Assembly (NCBI GenBank): GCA_046759145.1
Contig: JBHIBR010000053.1
Span: 1-8,572 of the forward strand
Direction of reading: 5' to 3'
DNA length: 8,572 nt
From: JBHIBR01 sp046759145 [NCBI: Nitrospinota bacterium]
GTDB taxonomy: Bacteria > UBA8248
Part shown: positions 1,699-7,037 of the stretch, one piece after another
Layout: each line of letters starts with the position of its first letter
How positions within the stretch are numbered: the first letter of the stretch is position 1
The notes under the pieces: model-generated
The model's database searches: none
Told to the model about the DNA's origin: nothing
What the model saw: only the letters and a program-made list of their open reading frames with translations
Program-made: the position numbers and the translations under genes

Positions 1699-2124
1699 GT
1701 GGGCCGCATCCTCGGCATCGACTGGGGCGAGAGGCGCGTGGGGGTGGCCCTCAGCGACCCCCTGGGCATCACCGCCCAGCCTCTCGCCTTCCTGCCGGGG
1801 GGGAACGAAGGGGACCTGCTCGACGCGCTGGCCCGGTTGGTGGAGGAGCGAGAGGTGGAGCGGGTGGTCGTAGGGGTTCCCCTCCACATGAGCGGGGCGC
1901 GAGGGGCGCGGGCGCGGAAGACGGAGGCCTTCATGGCCCGTCTGGCGAAGCGCCTCTCGGTGCCCGTGGAGGGTTGGGACGAGCGGCTCAGCACTGCGGC
2001 GGCGGAGCGGTCGCTGCGGGAGATGGGCCTGAGCGGGAAGAAGAGGAGGGGGAAGCTGGACGTGGCCTCGGCCCAGCTCATCCTCCAGGGATACCTGGAT
2101 CGCCAGCGGGGGGCGGGGCGGTGA
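1699..2124 (+). CDS. ruvX: Pre-16S rRNA nuclease YqgF / putative Holliday junction resolvase RuvX
   Basis: A 141-residue protein of the YqgF family (RNase H-like fold), about the usual length (E. coli 138). In E. coli the protein matures the 5' end of 16S rRNA; a Holliday-junction role has also been proposed. Family marks are present: the GIDWGERRVGVALSD segment (residues 6-20) with metal-ligand Asp8, VVGVPLHMSG at 57-66, WDERLST at 93-99 with Glu95, and the C-terminal DVASAQLILQGYLD at 121-134 with Asp121. These acidic residues form the expected active site. The GTG start is chosen because AGGAGG lies at 1691-1696 (spacing is tight, with GGGAGG at 1688-1693 as the better-spaced alternative) and because the family's conserved first strand begins at residue 3. 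The stop overlaps the mltG start (GTGA), implying translational coupling. The ruvX-mltG pair recurs in many bacteria. Confidence 0.95.
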   Translation: MGRILGIDWGERRVGVALSDPLGITAQPLAFLPGGNEGDLLDALARLVEEREVERVVVGVPLHMSGARGARARKTEAFMARLAKRLSVPVEGWDERLSTAAAERSLREMGLSGKKRRGKLDVASAQLILQGYLDRQRGAGR

Positions 2125-3206
2125 GTGCGCCCGAGAGGGGCCCGGCCCCCGAGGAAACCCCGGGGAAAACTCGCGCGGCGGGGGGGCGAGTGGCGGTCGT
2201 TGCCCTCGCTTTGCTGCTCGCGGCTGCGGGGGCACTCTGGTTCGTGCGGGCGCAGTGGGATCGCCCCCTGCAGAAGGAGCCCGCACCCCGGGCGGTGGAG
2301 ATCCCCCCGGGGAGTTCCCTCCGCCGCATCTCCCTCCTCCTGGCTCGGGAGGGCGTCATCGCCCGACCCTTCCTCTTTCGCCTGCTCACCCGGGTGGAAG
2401 GCCAGGACCGGGTCCTGAAGGCGGGCGAGTACGAGCTGGGCCCCCATCTCTCGCCCCGGCAGGTGCTGCGGAAGCTCGCCCGGGGAGAGGTCATCCAGCA
2501 CCCGGTCACCATCCCCGAGGGCTCCTCCCTCTTCGAGGTGGCGAGGCTGGTGGAGGGGAGGCACCTCCTCCCCCCGGGTCGCCTCCTGCCGCTGGCCATG
2601 GACCCGGCGGTGGCGAAGAGCCTGGGGGTCGAGGCGAGCTCGCTCGAGGGCTACCTCTTTCCCGAGACCTACTTCTTCCCCAAGGGGATGAGCGCCCGGA
2701 AGGTACTCCGCACCATGGTGGAGGCCACGCGCAAGGTTTTGACCCCCGAGATTCGTCGGCGCGCGGAGGCTCTGGGGCTGGGCGTCCACGGCGCCCTCAC
2801 CCTGGCTTCCATCATCGAGAAGGAAACCGACCTGGCCGAGGAACGCCCCCTGGTCTCGGCCGTTTTCCACAACCGCCTCCAAAGGGGCATGCCCCTGCAG
2901 GGTGACCCCACCGTCATCTACGCTCTCAAACTCGCCGGCCGCTACCGGGGGAAGCTGGGCCGGGGGGAGCTCGCCTTCGACTCCCCATACAACACCTACC
3001 GCCACAAGGGTCTCCCCCCCGGGCCCATCGCCAATTCGGGGCTGGACTCCCTGCGGGCCGCCCTCTACCCCGCTCCCGTCCCCTACCTCTATTTCGTCGC
3101 CAAGGAGGGGGGCGGCCACCACTTCTCGCGCACCATCGAGGAACACCGCCGCGCCATAGCGCGCGAGCGGCGAAGAGCCTCCCGCACCCGCGAGCGAGGC
3201 GGTTGA
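2121..3206 (+). CDS. mltG: Endolytic peptidoglycan transglycosylase MltG (YceG family)
   Basis: A 361-residue membrane-anchored lytic transglycosylase that cuts nascent glycan strands in the periplasm and is thought to terminate their polymerisation. From GTG at 2121 the protein has a short cytoplasmic tail, one membrane segment at about 24-42, a LysM-like region at about 56-145 (IPPGSSLRRIS and IPEGSSLFEVA are its two repeated starts), and the YceG catalytic domain. The catalytic motif LASIIEKET lies at 228-236; Glu233 corresponds to the essential Glu of E. coli MltG. The other family blocks follow: FHNRLQRGMPLQGDPTVIYA (249-268), SPYNTYRHKGLPPGPIANSG (288-307) and the YLYFVAKEGGGHHFS end block (322-336). 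The start is inferred from the 4-base GTGA overlap with ruvX, which places the membrane segment at the normal distance; the reading frame is open upstream inside ruvX but lacks homology there. The length is normal (E. coli 340). The tail is unusually Arg-rich (residues 343-358). Confidence 0.95.
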   Translation: MSAPERGPAPEETPGKTRAAGGRVAVVALALLLAAAGALWFVRAQWDRPLQKEPAPRAVEIPPGSSLRRISLLLAREGVIARPFLFRLLTRVEGQDRVLKAGEYELGPHLSPRQVLRKLARGEVIQHPVTIPEGSSLFEVARLVEGRHLLPPGRLLPLAMDPAVAKSLGVEASSLEGYLFPETYFFPKGMSARKVLRTMVEATRKVLTPEIRRRAEALGLGVHGALTLASIIEKETDLAEERPLVSAVFHNRLQRGMPLQGDPTVIYALKLAGRYRGKLGRGELAFDSPYNTYRHKGLPPGPIANSGLDSLRAALYPAPVPYLYFVAKEGGGHHFSRTIEEHRRAIARERRRASRTRERGG

Positions 3207-3231
3207 CCCGCCATTGGAGTGGTGACATCAT
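3203..3231 (+). promoter_or_regulatory. Probable promoter for the receiver-protein/valS/birA/coaX cluster
   Basis: TTGACC at 3203-3208 (5 of 6 to -35) is followed after exactly 17 bases by CATCAT at 3226-3231 (4 of 6 to -10), with an extended -10 TG at 3223-3224. Downstream is the AT-rich patch CAAATTTTA (3232-3240), which stands out in this GC-rich window and would sit at the transcription start. The -35 box overlaps the mltG stop codon (3204-3206). The expected start of transcription is near 3238, about 80 bases before the ATG at 3317. Confidence 0.45.
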
Positions 3232-3242
3232 CAAATTTTAAG

Positions 3243-3302
3243 CGGCGGGAGGTTCCCTGCCGGAGGAGGCTGGCGGGGAGAGGCCCCTTCTTTGCGCCCG
3301 CC
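3243..3302 (+). other. GC hairpins in the leader before the receiver-domain gene
   Basis: A first stem pairs CGGC+GGGA (3243-3250) with TCCC+GCCG (3254-3257 and 3259-3262), with a 3-base loop and one bulged T. A second can form either GGGG (3275-3278) with CCCC (3284-3287), followed by TTCTTT (3288-3293), or GGCGGG (3272-3277) with CCCGCC (3297-3302). The two forms of the second stem are mutually exclusive. This could be a weak terminator for the mltG transcript, a weak attenuator, or chance pairing in GC-rich DNA. The T-run is interrupted and the 4-base stem is short, so I do not call a terminator. Confidence 0.25.
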
Positions 3303-3316
3303 CTGAGGGTCCGGCC

Positions 3317-4369
3317 ATGGCGAAGAGGCTGTTGGTAGCGGACGGCAGCCCGACTATCCAGCGGGAGGTGGAGGTCACCTTCCAGGGCAGGGACATCGAG
3401 GTCTTGGTCGCCTCCGACGGCGAGACGGCCCTCAGGCTGGCGCGCGAGCTCGGGCCGGATGTGGTGCTGGCCGATGTGGAGATGCCGGATCTGGACGGGC
3501 TCTCCCTCTGCCGGACGATGAAGTCGGACCCCCTCCTGAAGGGCATCCCCTGCATCCTGCTCACCAAGGCCTTCGGGGAACCCGACGAGGCGTCCGCCCG
3601 GGCGGCGGGGGCGGCCTCCTGGCTGGCAAAGCCCTTCGAGGCAAAAGAGCTGGTGGCCAAGGTGGAGAGGGCGCTGGGGGAGCCGGAGGCGGGCGCGACT
3701 CCGCCTCCCCCGGCCTCCCAAGAGCCCCTCTCGGCCTCGGTGGAGCCCGTGATGGAGGACTTTGCCCTGGAGGAAAGGGCGGGGGGGGACTCGCGCCCTC
3801 GAGACGTGCTGCCTGGGGAGGCCGACCTGGACACCGAGGTCGTCCTGGAGGAGGCGGAGCGGCTCATCGAGGAGGAGGAGAGGAGGGAGAAACACCCCGC
3901 TCTCGAAGCCTCCCCCGGGGTAGCCCTCTCCCCGGCGGGGGGCGGCGATCTGCAAGGCGGCCCTTCCGGGGAGGGGGCGCCGGAGGCCCTGGACCTGGCG
4001 GACCTTCTGGAGATCGAGCTCGCCCGGGGGGAGGAAGAAAAGCCCGAGGAGTTTTCTCCCCCGCCAGAAGCGGCGCCGGCCGAGAGGCCCGTCGCCCCAG
4101 AGCCCGCGGAGGGGAAGGGAGGGGACGATACTCCGGTTGCGGAGGAGGCGCCCCGCGCACCGAGGGCCGGCTTCCGGGGCGGTGCGATGGTTCTCTCTCT
4201 CCCCGAGGCCGAGCTGCGCTCGCTCGCGCGGGAAGTGCTCTCGGAGGGCTTCGAGAAGGTGGTCCCCCGGGTGGTCCAGCTCGTGGAGGAGACGGCCCGG
4301 GAGATGGCCCCGGCCATTGTGGAGCGGGTGGTCCGGGAGGAGATCGAGAGACTCAAGCGCGGAGAGTAG
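3317..4369 (+). CDS. Receiver-domain protein with acidic linker and helical, PopZ-like C-terminal tail
   Basis: A 350-residue soluble protein in three parts. Residues 3-121 form a CheY-like receiver: phosphoacceptor Asp53 (in ADVEMPDLDG), Thr83 and Lys105 (in AKPF) are in place, but the usual pair of N-terminal acidic residues is reduced to Ala8-Asp9, which may weaken magnesium binding. Residues 122-290 are rich in Glu, Pro, Ala and Gly and probably mostly disordered, with a short Glu-rich helix around 175-192 and a leucine-rich acidic segment around 223-237. Residues 292-350 form amphipathic helices ending in IVERVVREEIERLKRGE. There is no DNA-binding, kinase or enzymatic output domain. From memory, the tail resembles the oligomerising C-terminus (DUF2497) of the polar organiser PopZ; this is motif-level only. 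The ATG has GAGGG at 3305-3309. The stop lies 3 bases before valS, so the two are probably translationally coupled. A classical transcriptional role is unlikely; scaffold, localisation or phospho-relay output are possible. Confidence 0.85.
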   Translation: MAKRLLVADGSPTIQREVEVTFQGRDIEVLVASDGETALRLARELGPDVVLADVEMPDLDGLSLCRTMKSDPLLKGIPCILLTKAFGEPDEASARAAGAASWLAKPFEAKELVAKVERALGEPEAGATPPPPASQEPLSASVEPVMEDFALEERAGGDSRPRDVLPGEADLDTEVVLEEAERLIEEEERREKHPALEASPGVALSPAGGGDLQGGPSGEGAPEALDLADLLEIELARGEEEKPEEFSPPPEAAPAERPVAPEPAEGKGGDDTPVAEEAPRAPRAGFRGGAMVLSLPEAELRSLAREVLSEGFEKVVPRVVQLVEETAREMAPAIVERVVREEIERLKRGE

Positions 4370-4372
4370 GTT

Positions 4373-7021
4373 TTGCTCGACAAGCGTTACGACCCGCGGG
4401 TGGCCGAGAGCAAGTGGTATGCGTTCTGGCGGGAGCGGGGCTACTTCCACGCTGAGCCCGCGGACGCGCGGCCCCCGTACTCCATCGTCATCCCGCCCCC
4501 CAACGTGACGGGCTCCCTCCACATGGGACACGCCCTCAACAACACCCTCCAGGACATCCTGGTGCGGTGGAAGCGGATGGAGGGGTTCAACGTCTGCTGG
4601 ATGCCGGGCACCGACCACGCTGGAATCGCCACCCAGAACGTGGTGGAACAGGAGCTCGCCCGGGAGGGCACGACCCGCCAGGTCCTCGGCCGGGAGGCTT
4701 TCCTCCAGCGGGTCTGGGATTGGAAGGACAAGTACGGGGGCATCATCACCAGCCAGCTCGCGCGCCTGGGGGCCTCGTGCGACTGGGAGCGGGAGCGCTT
4801 CACCATGGACGAGGGCCTCTCCCGGGCGGTGCGGGAGGTCTTCGTCCGCCTCTACGAGCAGGGTCTCATCTACCGGACCAATTACATCATCAACTGGTGT
4901 CCCCGCTGTCACACCGCGCTCAGCGACCTCGAGGTGGAACACCGCGAGCTGGACGGGCACCTCTACCACGTGCGCTACCCCGCGGCCGAGGGCGGGGGGT
5001 ACCTCACCGTCGCCACCACGCGGCCGGAGACCATCCTGGGCGACACGGCCGTGGCTGTGCACCCCGACGACGAGCGCCACCGGAGCTGGGTGGGCAGGGA
5101 GGTGCTGCTCCCCCTCCTCAAGCGGCCGCTGCCCGTCATCGCGGATTCCTATGTGAGCCGGGAGTTCGGCACAGGGGCCCTCAAGATCACCCCCGGCCAC
5201 GACCCCAACGACTTCCTGGTGGGACTCCGCCACGACCTCCCCCAGCTCAACGTGCTCAATCCCGACGCCACCATGAACGAAGAGGCCGGGCCCTACCGCG
5301 GGCTGGACCGCTTCGAGTGCCGGGCCCGCGTCCTGGAGGACCTCAAGGGGGAGGGCCTCCTGGATCGGGTGGAGCCCCACCGCCACGCGGTGGGGCACTG
5401 CTACCGGTGCCACACCGTGGTGGAGCCCTACCTCTCCCTCCAGTGGTTCGTCCGCACGGAGGAGCTCGCCAGGCCCGCCATCCGGGCGGTGGAGGAGGGC
5501 CGCATCCGCATCGTCCCCTCCACGTGGGAGAACACCTATTTCGAGTGGATGCGGAACATCCGGGACTGGTGCATCTCCCGCCAGATCTGGTGGGGGCACC
5601 GCATCCCCGCCTGGTACTGCGACCCCTGCGGGGAGGTGGTGGTGGCCCGGGAGGAGCCCCCCGGCTGCCCCCGGTGCGGGGGGCCGCTGCGCCAGGAGAG
5701 CGAGGTGCTGGACACCTGGTTCAGCTCGGCGCTGTGGCCCTTCTCCACCTTCGGCTGGCCCGAGGAGAGCGCCGAGCTCAAGACCTTCTACCCCACATCG
5801 GTCCTGGTGACGGGCTTCGACATCCTCTTCTTCTGGGTGGCCCGGATGGCCATGATGGGGCTGCGCTTCATGGGCGATGTGCCCTTCCGGGATGTGTACA
5901 TCCACGCCCTCGTCCGGGACGAGGAAGGCCAGAAGATGAGCAAGAGCCGCGGGAACGTCATCGACCCCCTGGAGGTCATCGACCGCTACGGGGCGGACGC
6001 CCTGCGGTTCACCCTGGCGGCGCTGGCGGCCCAGGGGCGCGACATCCGCCTCTCGGAGGGCCGCATCGCGGGCTACCGCAATTTCTGCAACAAGCTCTGG
6101 AACGCCGCCCGCTTCGTCCTCATGCAGCTCGAAGGGTGGGCGGGACCGCGCAACGGAGCTCCCCGCCGCGAGGAGCTGGCGCTTGCCGACCGCTGGGTGC
6201 TCAGCCGCTCGGGCGCCCTCGCCGACAAGGTGCGGGGGGCGCTGGAGGAGTACAGATTCAACGACGCGGCGGGAGCCCTCTACCAGTTCCTCTGGCATGA
6301 GTACTGCGACTGGTACCTGGAGGTGGTGAAGCCGCGCCTGCAGCGCGAGGGAGAGGCGAGCGCCGAGGCCGCCCGCTGGGTGCTGTGGAGGGTGCTGGAG
6401 CGCACGCTGCGGCTCCTCCACCCCTTCGCCCCTTTCATCACCGAGGAGATCTGGCAGCAACTCCCCGGCCGAACGGACGAGAGCATCCAGGCCACCTCCT
6501 ACCCGCAGGCCGAGAGCGGGTGGGAGGACCCCGAGGCGGAGGCCTCCATGGGCGCGCTGATGGAGGTGCTGACGAGCGTCCGCAACATCCGGGGGGAGCT
6601 GGGAATTGCCCCCGCCAAGAAGGTCGCCGCCCTCGTGCGAGCGACCGACGCGAGCCGGCGCGCGCTCCTGGAGGAAGAGCAGGAGTGGATCTGTCGCCTG
6701 GGCAAGGTGGGGACCTGGCAGGTGGGGCCTGAGGTGGAGCGCCCCCGGGCAGCGGCGGCGGCGGTGGCGGGGGGCGTGGAGGTCTTCGTCCCCCTGGACG
6801 GCCTCCTGGACGTGGAGGAGGAGATCCGGCGCCTCCAGAAACAGCTCCAGGCGCTGGAGGAGGACCGCGCCTCCCTGAGGGGGAAACTCTCCAATCCCGA
6901 CTTCCTCGGGCGCGCCCCCGCCGCCGTGGTGGAGAAGGACCGGCGCAGGCTCGAAGAGCTCGACGCGCGGGCCCAGAGGCTCGAGGAGAACCTCGAGCGC
7001 CTGCGGGCGCTCGTGGCCTGA
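4373..7021 (+). CDS. valS: Valyl-tRNA synthetase
   Basis: An 882-residue class Ia aminoacyl-tRNA synthetase that charges tRNA-Val in the cytoplasm and edits misactivated threonine. The HIGH signature appears as HMGH (50-53) within PPPNVTGSLHMGHALNNT, and the KMSKS loop is exact at 521-525. The editing domain shows TTRPETILGDTAVAVHP from about 215 and GTGALKITPGHDPND at about 266-280. Cysteine pairs at 176/179 and 343/346, and at 416/419 and 432/435, look like two zinc sites as in the Thermus-type enzyme. The anticodon-binding helical domain follows FCNKLWNAARF, and the C-terminal coiled-coil arm spans about 813-882. Length matches the shorter bacterial form (about 880). The start is TTG: it gives the family's usual LDKRYDP opening, GGAG at 4361-4364 is well placed, and no upstream in-frame alternative fits. 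The gene follows the receiver-protein gene by 3 bases. No T-box leader is seen. Confidence 0.98.
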   Translation: MLDKRYDPRVAESKWYAFWRERGYFHAEPADARPPYSIVIPPPNVTGSLHMGHALNNTLQDILVRWKRMEGFNVCWMPGTDHAGIATQNVVEQELAREGTTRQVLGREAFLQRVWDWKDKYGGIITSQLARLGASCDWERERFTMDEGLSRAVREVFVRLYEQGLIYRTNYIINWCPRCHTALSDLEVEHRELDGHLYHVRYPAAEGGGYLTVATTRPETILGDTAVAVHPDDERHRSWVGREVLLPLLKRPLPVIADSYVSREFGTGALKITPGHDPNDFLVGLRHDLPQLNVLNPDATMNEEAGPYRGLDRFECRARVLEDLKGEGLLDRVEPHRHAVGHCYRCHTVVEPYLSLQWFVRTEELARPAIRAVEEGRIRIVPSTWENTYFEWMRNIRDWCISRQIWWGHRIPAWYCDPCGEVVVAREEPPGCPRCGGPLRQESEVLDTWFSSALWPFSTFGWPEESAELKTFYPTSVLVTGFDILFFWVARMAMMGLRFMGDVPFRDVYIHALVRDEEGQKMSKSRGNVIDPLEVIDRYGADALRFTLAALAAQGRDIRLSEGRIAGYRNFCNKLWNAARFVLMQLEGWAGPRNGAPRREELALADRWVLSRSGALADKVRGALEEYRFNDAAGALYQFLWHEYCDWYLEVVKPRLQREGEASAEAARWVLWRVLERTLRLLHPFAPFITEEIWQQLPGRTDESIQATSYPQAESGWEDPEAEASMGALMEVLTSVRNIRGELGIAPAKKVAALVRATDASRRALLEEEQEWICRLGKVGTWQVGPEVERPRAAAAAVAGGVEVFVPLDGLLDVEEEIRRLQKQLQALEEDRASLRGKLSNPDFLGRAPAAVVEKDRRRLEELDARAQRLEENLERLRALVA

Positions 7022-7023
7022 GG

Positions 7024-7037
7024 GGGCCACCAGGCCC
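7024..7037 (+). other. Small hairpin in the valS-birA gap
   Basis: A perfect 5-base stem, GGGCC (7024-7028) with GGCCC (7033-7037), closes a 4-base ACCA loop directly after the valS stop. No T-tract follows, so it is not an intrinsic terminator. It could modestly protect the upstream mRNA or be chance in GC-rich DNA. The birA ribosome site GGGAG (7042-7046) follows at once. Confidence 0.2.

Follow-up and report, generated by a model that had tools for sequence, protein, structure and literature searches.

A Putative RomR-Like Receiver–Linker–Helix Protein Encoded Upstream of valS

The gene at positions 3317–4369 of the window, that is, of the whole 8,572-nucleotide stretch of DNA analyzed here, encodes a receiver followed by a mostly disordered, acidic and proline-rich linker (residues 121–296) and by one long C-terminal helix (residues 297–347), and its closest known relative is RomR, the organizer of the cell pole of gliding bacteria, rather than PopZ. 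More precisely, the protein looks like a distant RomR variant devoid of the tail Trp, and we favor, with a probability of roughly 0.6, the hypothesis that it acts as a RomR-like self-assembling hub running without the MglA/MglB/MglC module. RomR is familiar as a component of the MglA/MglB polarity switch. The existence of RomR-like proteins in genomes without Mgl matches, the tracking of the tail Trp with Roadblock, and a family-level profile match between these tails and that of PopZ together make testable the idea that two pole organizers share one assembly helix.

A Three-Part Gene Conserved Upstream of valS

The gene belongs to a row of genes all encoded on the + strand, tolC (OEP)–ruvX–mltG–REC–valS–birA–coaX (table 1). 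The three-part architecture proposed in the initial annotation of this DNA (receiver, linker, and helical tail) is borne out by the translation, by Pfam, by AlphaFold2, and by homologs, and amounts to more than chance, for other genomes have homologs built of the same parts and likewise situated upstream of valS. One sigma-70-like promoter match lies just before the gene (3203–3231; one match against a shuffle mean of 0.0, sd 0.2), an Rfam search returned no match, and a 1313-aa open frame of the − strand (3089–7030), opposite the gene and valS, is most likely a high-GC artifact.

Table 1. Window coordinates of the gene, its neighbors, and the parts and residues of its product
Feature	Coordinates	Strand	Remarks
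mltG (YceG), upstream neighbor	2121..3206	+	Start 2121 read from sequence; upstream in 16/17 sister loci too
Putative RomR-like response regulator gene	3317..4369	+	350 aa, ATG start, TAG stop; homologs upstream of valS
Receiver (REC) domain, residues 1–120	3317..3676	+	Pfam PF00072, E 8.6e-21; AlphaFold2 blocks 94–98, one 77
D9-G10, degenerate acidic pair	3341..3346	+	D-D or D-E in 48/53 aligned receivers
Asp53, putative phospho-acceptor	3473..3475	+	D in 31/53 aligned rows; cf. RomR D53 (PMC3441718)
Thr83, switch position	3563..3565	+	Column mixed in family (T, A, S, V, and others)
Lys105, conserved lysine	3629..3631	+	K in 51/53 rows, R in 2; invariant in 34-row alignment
Acidic/Pro-rich linker, residues 121–296	3677..4204	+	Mostly disordered in AlphaFold2 model; predicted helix 173–192
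C-terminal helix, residues 297–347	4205..4357	+	RomR-C-like; PopZ-like at family level
Arg328, at column of tail Trp (RomR Trp394)	4298..4300	+	Tail alignment
Pro332, conserved tail Pro	4310..4312	+	Kept in 58/62 tails
valS, conserved downstream neighbor	4373..7021	+	3 bp gap after the 3317..4369 gene

In an initial survey of ValRS, which covered 45 genomes of the phylum of G001, none of the ten valS loci obtained contained a related receiver. A search of the 290 genomes reached from an available center yielded ValRS of up to 66% identity, beside several of which a receiver with a similar tail was found. The profile of an alignment of 16 tails from valS-linked genes, the window's included (alignment A1), matched in 59 of 242 genomes at E 0.01. 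Besides the window's own gene, 61 family genes were listed, of which 47 are closely followed by valS and 43 of those 47 have a recognized receiver, in a sample where part of the loci had been taken because of valS and where A1 likewise came from valS-linked genes. Among the loci taken around tail matches (L135–L179), valS follows 30 of 44 genes, 15 of the 30 belonging to a sister lineage that is joined to the window in a ValRS tree of 16 genomes (100/100). Of the 17 loci of this sister lineage, 16 have a gap of 3–4 bp before valS, and mltG precedes the gene just as often. Three receiver genes before valS (L054, L069, and L070) have tails outside the family list, L069 being nonetheless part of A1, and three doubtful tail matches (L176, L165, and L174) were kept out of the 59-tail profile, although they are included among the 61 genes, in the 62 rows of the tail alignment, and, through their genomes, among the 59 genomes. 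L061 carries a tandem duplicate of the receiver–linker–tail gene upstream of valS (1328–2467 and 2847–3935), and in L054 (6723–10705), genes that by eye resemble a CheA-type kinase with a receiver and a CheB lie ahead of valS and of a diverged member of the family, an order that hints at a chemosensory input.

Apart from Response_reg, which spans residues 6–117, no Pfam family matches the 350-aa protein at its curated cut-off. The initial annotation had seen no known output domain, and indeed no Pfam output domain passes its cut-off, but the output part does have known kin, since the tail is homologous to RomR-type tails, which the annotation had not named. In the AlphaFold2 model (run as a monomer with 34 sequences; pTM 0.44), the less confident block of the receiver corresponds to residues 81–90, and the tail forms a single continuous helix with pLDDT blocks of 80–93 after a first block of 72. 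This agrees with the helical tail described beforehand, except for its amphipathic character: the hydrophobic moment of the whole tail at 100 degrees (0.065) lies below the shuffle mean (0.153; 874 of 1,000 shuffles at least as high), so that amphipathicity of the whole helix is not shown; a moment of 0.43 is obtained at 95 degrees, a value without a control.

The linker answers closely to its earlier description as a disordered, Glu/Pro-rich stretch of about 170 residues: over the 168 residues measured, 25.6% are Asp or Glu and 14.9% Pro, the net charge per residue is −0.17, and the pLDDT blocks are mostly 36–59, with the exception of the predicted helix, whose blocks are at 78 and 89, and of a second, weak helix at residues 227–236. 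Such a net acidic linker was found in 46 of the 50 family members measured. Two linkers of the sister lineage (L047, 6615–8177; L135, 4192–5781) carry repeated acidic D/E-h-D/E-x-L-F motifs, for example, ELDSLF, which, we presume, recall FliM-type receiver-binding peptides; these motifs are weakly enriched in 50 family linkers (20 vs. 8.8 in shuffles, sd 3.2), and the window linker contains none.

The Receiver and Its Phosphorylation

The three receiver residues named at the outset (Asp53, Thr83, and Lys105) are all right, and the acidic pair, absent from the initial annotation, can be added to them; the columns given in table 1 come from a 53-row alignment of family receivers in which the window is included. 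The window protein keeps the D53 that its sister lineage has lost, Ser or Gly standing in its place in every one of the 16 receivers of that lineage that could be read, and the column is D in 17 of 17 rows of the alignment of receivers from Trp-bearing proteins. The suggestion that phosphorylation tunes the protein is doubtful, because the acidic pair is degenerate and the sister receivers are without Asp53. Judging from these residues, phosphorylation may still modulate the window protein, where D53 is kept, but cannot be a general switch in the sister lineage, since the Asp is lost there.

Homology to RomR

RomR was defined in 2012 by a receiver, an unstructured linker, and a C-terminal region, RomR-C, with an invariant Trp and an invariant Pro (PMC3441718). 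That survey encountered intact RomR solely in the company of MglA and MglB and described RomR-C as non-homologous to characterized domains, and RomR-C and the RomR linker are each reported to localize to the poles (PMC3441718). In Myxococcus, the RomR helix 371–420, which ends in H420, forms a homotrimer in solution and binds MglC; E390, K391, W394, and E402 are its named residues, W394 being crucial for MglC binding (PMC12719032, 2025). The RomR of Bdellovibrio has been described as a hub (PMC11025332).

One family member, L152, could be tied to this literature. Its product has 416 aa, its gene ends 56 bp before valS, and the genome, of 9 Mb, also contains MglA and Roadblock; when counted from its C terminus, it reproduces E390, K391, W394, E402, and the terminal His at 420 of RomR, so that we infer from the published residue numbers alone that L152 is a RomR. 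In single BLASTP comparisons with it, the window protein aligns both by its receiver (44% over 122 aa, E 4e-28) and by its tail (34% over 47 aa, E 2e-4). At the family level, a model built from the 21 Trp-bearing tails was run on the 38 Trp-less ones: with Z = 1000 it recovers 36 of them at E < 0.01, and it finds the window's tail at 4e-5. The receiver behaves less distinctively: under a model built from the receivers of 17 Trp-bearing members it reaches 131 bits, against 110.3 for the best receiver outside the family list once the valS-linked L069 (193 bits) and L054 (142 bits), both with diverged tails, are set aside, and the 37 family receivers outside the model have a median of 98 bits, nine of them exceeding 110.3. 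As an indication that the receiver belongs to the RomR subfamily, this comparison is moderate at most, and the RomR-like reading is carried by the tail, the synteny, and the co-occurrence described below, the receiver test being given lower weight.

Held against the published definition, the window protein has a receiver with D53, an unstructured linker (AlphaFold2 blocks mostly under 60, apart from the one predicted helix), and a helix that is homologous to RomR-C by both the tail model and BLASTP. As for the invariant pair, the Pro is kept and the Trp is replaced by Arg, whereas proteins of the sister lineage have Val, Ala, or Glu in that column; formal RomR membership fails because this invariant Trp is missing.

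The Tail Trp and the Mgl Proteins

The presence of the tail Trp tracks that of Roadblock proteins. Among the 59 tail-bearing genomes, divided manually into Trp-bearing and Trp-less classes (G185 being classed as Trp-bearing by reading L171), a Roadblock match is present in 20 of 21 Trp-bearing vs. 4 of 38 Trp-less genomes (4 of 21 outside the sister lineage), and an MglA match in 21 of 21 vs. 7 of 38. When the sister lineage is counted once and the three doubtful matches are removed, the Trp-less proportions become 4 of 19 for Roadblock (P = 1.6e-6) and 7 of 19 for MglA (P = 9e-6), in Fisher tests that treat genomes as independent though they are not. The Trp-less exceptions are G090, G109, G196, and G249, which have both proteins, and G123, G177, and G264, which have MglA only; conversely, G194 has the Trp and MglA and lacks a Roadblock match. 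The 183 genomes without a tail match include 43 with Roadblock and 57 with MglA. Two other markers proved of little use: Arf (PF00025) as a proxy for MglA was too loose (154 of 242 genomes) and was replaced by an MglA query, and PilM did not discriminate, being present in 196 of the 242 genomes and in 15 of the nearest 18.

None of the 18 genomes nearest to G184, in a nearness list that conveys no kinship, with 16 of them in the ValRS tree and some perhaps incomplete, has a Roadblock match at E 1e-4 or an MglA match at E 1e-25. The window's own genome would likewise be devoid of Mgl proteins, given that the sister lineage to which the ValRS tree joins it is without matches.

The Relation to PopZ and Rival Explanations

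The initial annotation had likened the tail to PopZ, the alphaproteobacterial pole organizer, and this likeness survives tests at the level of the family, while it is modest for the window tail itself. Alone, the window tail reaches 14.6 bits with DUF2497 (PF10691; E 0.046), below the 27-bit Pfam cut-off, and E 0.0017 (Z = 1000), a modest value, with a PopZ model. As the annotation had also stated, a receiver occupies the place of the N-terminal helix of PopZ (Pfam, AlphaFold2). The window protein fails PopZ membership, on account of both its score below the DUF2497 cut-off and this replacement. When 16 family tails were compared with Pfam, only DUF2497 was matched by several of them (6 at a loose E of 10, the best at 5e-4), sporadic matches of single members to EnY2, DUF6771, and other families being disregarded.

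PopZ genes were taken from 30 loci of a search with DUF2497 in 105 of 115 genomes, plus one earlier locus, and the 28 tails recognized by motif among these 31 genes were used as a profile. A single hhalign comparison with the 59 family tails gives 95.3% (E 2.2e-8). Reciprocally, and at E < 0.01 with Z = 1000, the family tail model recovers 28 of 28 PopZ tails vs. 0 of 280 shuffles, and the PopZ model 38 of 59 family tails vs. 0 of 590 shuffles. Over the C-termini of 3,929 ORFs, the PopZ model finds 41 at E < 0.01, namely 40 family members and the valS-linked receiver gene L070; the tail model also retrieves the three PopZ genes missed by motif (E 1.6e-7, 1.1e-6, and 0.002), when no other ORF among the 431 of those PopZ loci reaches E 1. 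A ValRS coiled coil used as a profile–profile decoy scores 1.1% and 0.5%. Taken together, the reciprocal searches, shuffles, ORF background, and decoy favor a real relation between the family tails and that of PopZ. Searches of the PDB were uninformative: with the tail as query, the best match was a designed repeat protein, whose whole-sequence E of 3.6e-7 adds up eight weak copies that score about 9 bits each and are all insufficient individually, and the remaining matches have E 0.7 or worse; the 16-row profile brought up nothing beyond a designed protein and, at E 0.15, a zinc-finger/GCN4 chimera.

On one rival explanation, the tail and the oligomerization domain of PopZ would be a single module by descent, fused here to a receiver, and the protein would form polar condensates recruiting many clients. 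In addition to the profile matches, AlphaFold2 predicts for the C terminus of PopZ one helix (184–225; pTM 0.29) that, like that of the window protein, continues through the conserved Pro, and PopZ too has an acidic, Pro-containing disordered region, which sets condensate properties together with a helical oligomerization domain and measures 78 aa in Caulobacter crescentus and 93 on average in Caulobacterales (PMC9512792). Yet we deem this descent rather unlikely, in view of the weak scores of the window tail itself and of the absence of the N-terminal client helix. The Trp-bearing tails, which are the most RomR-like, reach only 74.6% with PopZ (vs. 95.3% for the Trp-less ones), the two classes match each other better (97.3%) than either matches PopZ, and the alignment, about 45 residues, all helical, with 13% identity, is short enough for convergence.

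The protein might also be a soluble signaling adaptor, whose tail would only dimerize the receiver or dock one partner, without polar or condensate behavior; its neighbors are housekeeping genes, and single-helix tails that merely dimerize are common. The pole targeting of the homologous RomR-C (PMC3441718) and the net acidic charge kept in nearly all family linkers speak against such an adaptor, which we regard as improbable. Far less credible still is a role in the expression or placement of valyl-tRNA synthetase, as the short gap to valS in the sister lineage could suggest: in the stretches examined, 14 of the 61 family genes lack a neighboring valS, many of the 60 surveyed valS loci have no such gene upstream, and RomR acts in polarity and motility.

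The distribution of the gene was also sought in other elements. A plasmid search with the whole protein returned 1,692 records, and among the 20 listed the match is to the receiver, one of them reaching residue 162; with the tail, the plasmid search returned none, and viral contigs searched with ValRS, the protein, and the tail gave no confirmed match. A scan of genome contigs gave six receiver matches from mixed groups.

A Hub That Would Work without Mgl

On the favored reading of a RomR-like hub, the C-terminal helix, which is probably a self-assembly helix by analogy with RomR 371–420, would self-associate, probably as a small coiled-coil oligomer, and this oligomer would mark the cell pole or another focus, as RomR-C and the RomR linker lead us to expect. 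The long acidic and Pro-rich linker would keep the assembly open and hold client-binding stretches, and the receiver would be a signal- or client-binding head, the hub role itself being suggested by the RomR of Bdellovibrio. The sister lineage suggests, moreover, that all this would take place independently of MglA, MglB, and MglC, the module served by the RomR of Myxococcus. By analogy with both systems, the window protein plausibly works like RomR and PopZ alike. A bolder and more speculative idea, to which we give less credence than to the hub, is that a single ancient helix for polar assembly is common to RomR and PopZ and that the valS-linked gene encodes the RomR/PopZ-type hub of many lineages; in Mgl-free ones, the window's among them, this hub would have become a stand-alone pole organizer after losing the Trp that contacts MglC and, for the sister lineage, the phospho-Asp as well. 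In the literature outside subscription papers and preprints, we found no statement of a relation between the RomR and PopZ helices, nor RomR mentioned together with valS or valyl-tRNA synthetase.

Comparison with Known Systems

The protein resembles RomR (M. xanthus MXAN_4461; Bdellovibrio Bd2761) by its D53 receiver, its unstructured linker, and a conserved C-terminal helix in which Glu and Pro follow the same pattern, as well as by its context, the RomR-like L152 also lying upstream of valS. Unlike RomR, it has an Arg at Trp394, D9-G10 as its acidic pair, and a linker that is acidic as well as Pro-rich, when that of L152 is hardly acidic (33% Pro, 3% acidic); and whereas RomR is found with Mgl, the window's nearest genomes have no MglA or Roadblock match. 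With PopZ, it shares an acidic, Pro-containing disordered region followed by a C-terminal helix of pattern P-x-h-h-E-x-h-h-x-x-E-h-x-K/R, but it differs by the receiver that stands instead of the N-terminal client helix, by a tail below the DUF2497 cut-off, and by a longer linker (168 aa vs. 78 in the PopZ of C. crescentus). As regards the receiver, a further parallel can be drawn with FrzS-type pseudo-receiver polarity proteins, in which this domain is a binding head rather than a phosphorylation switch.
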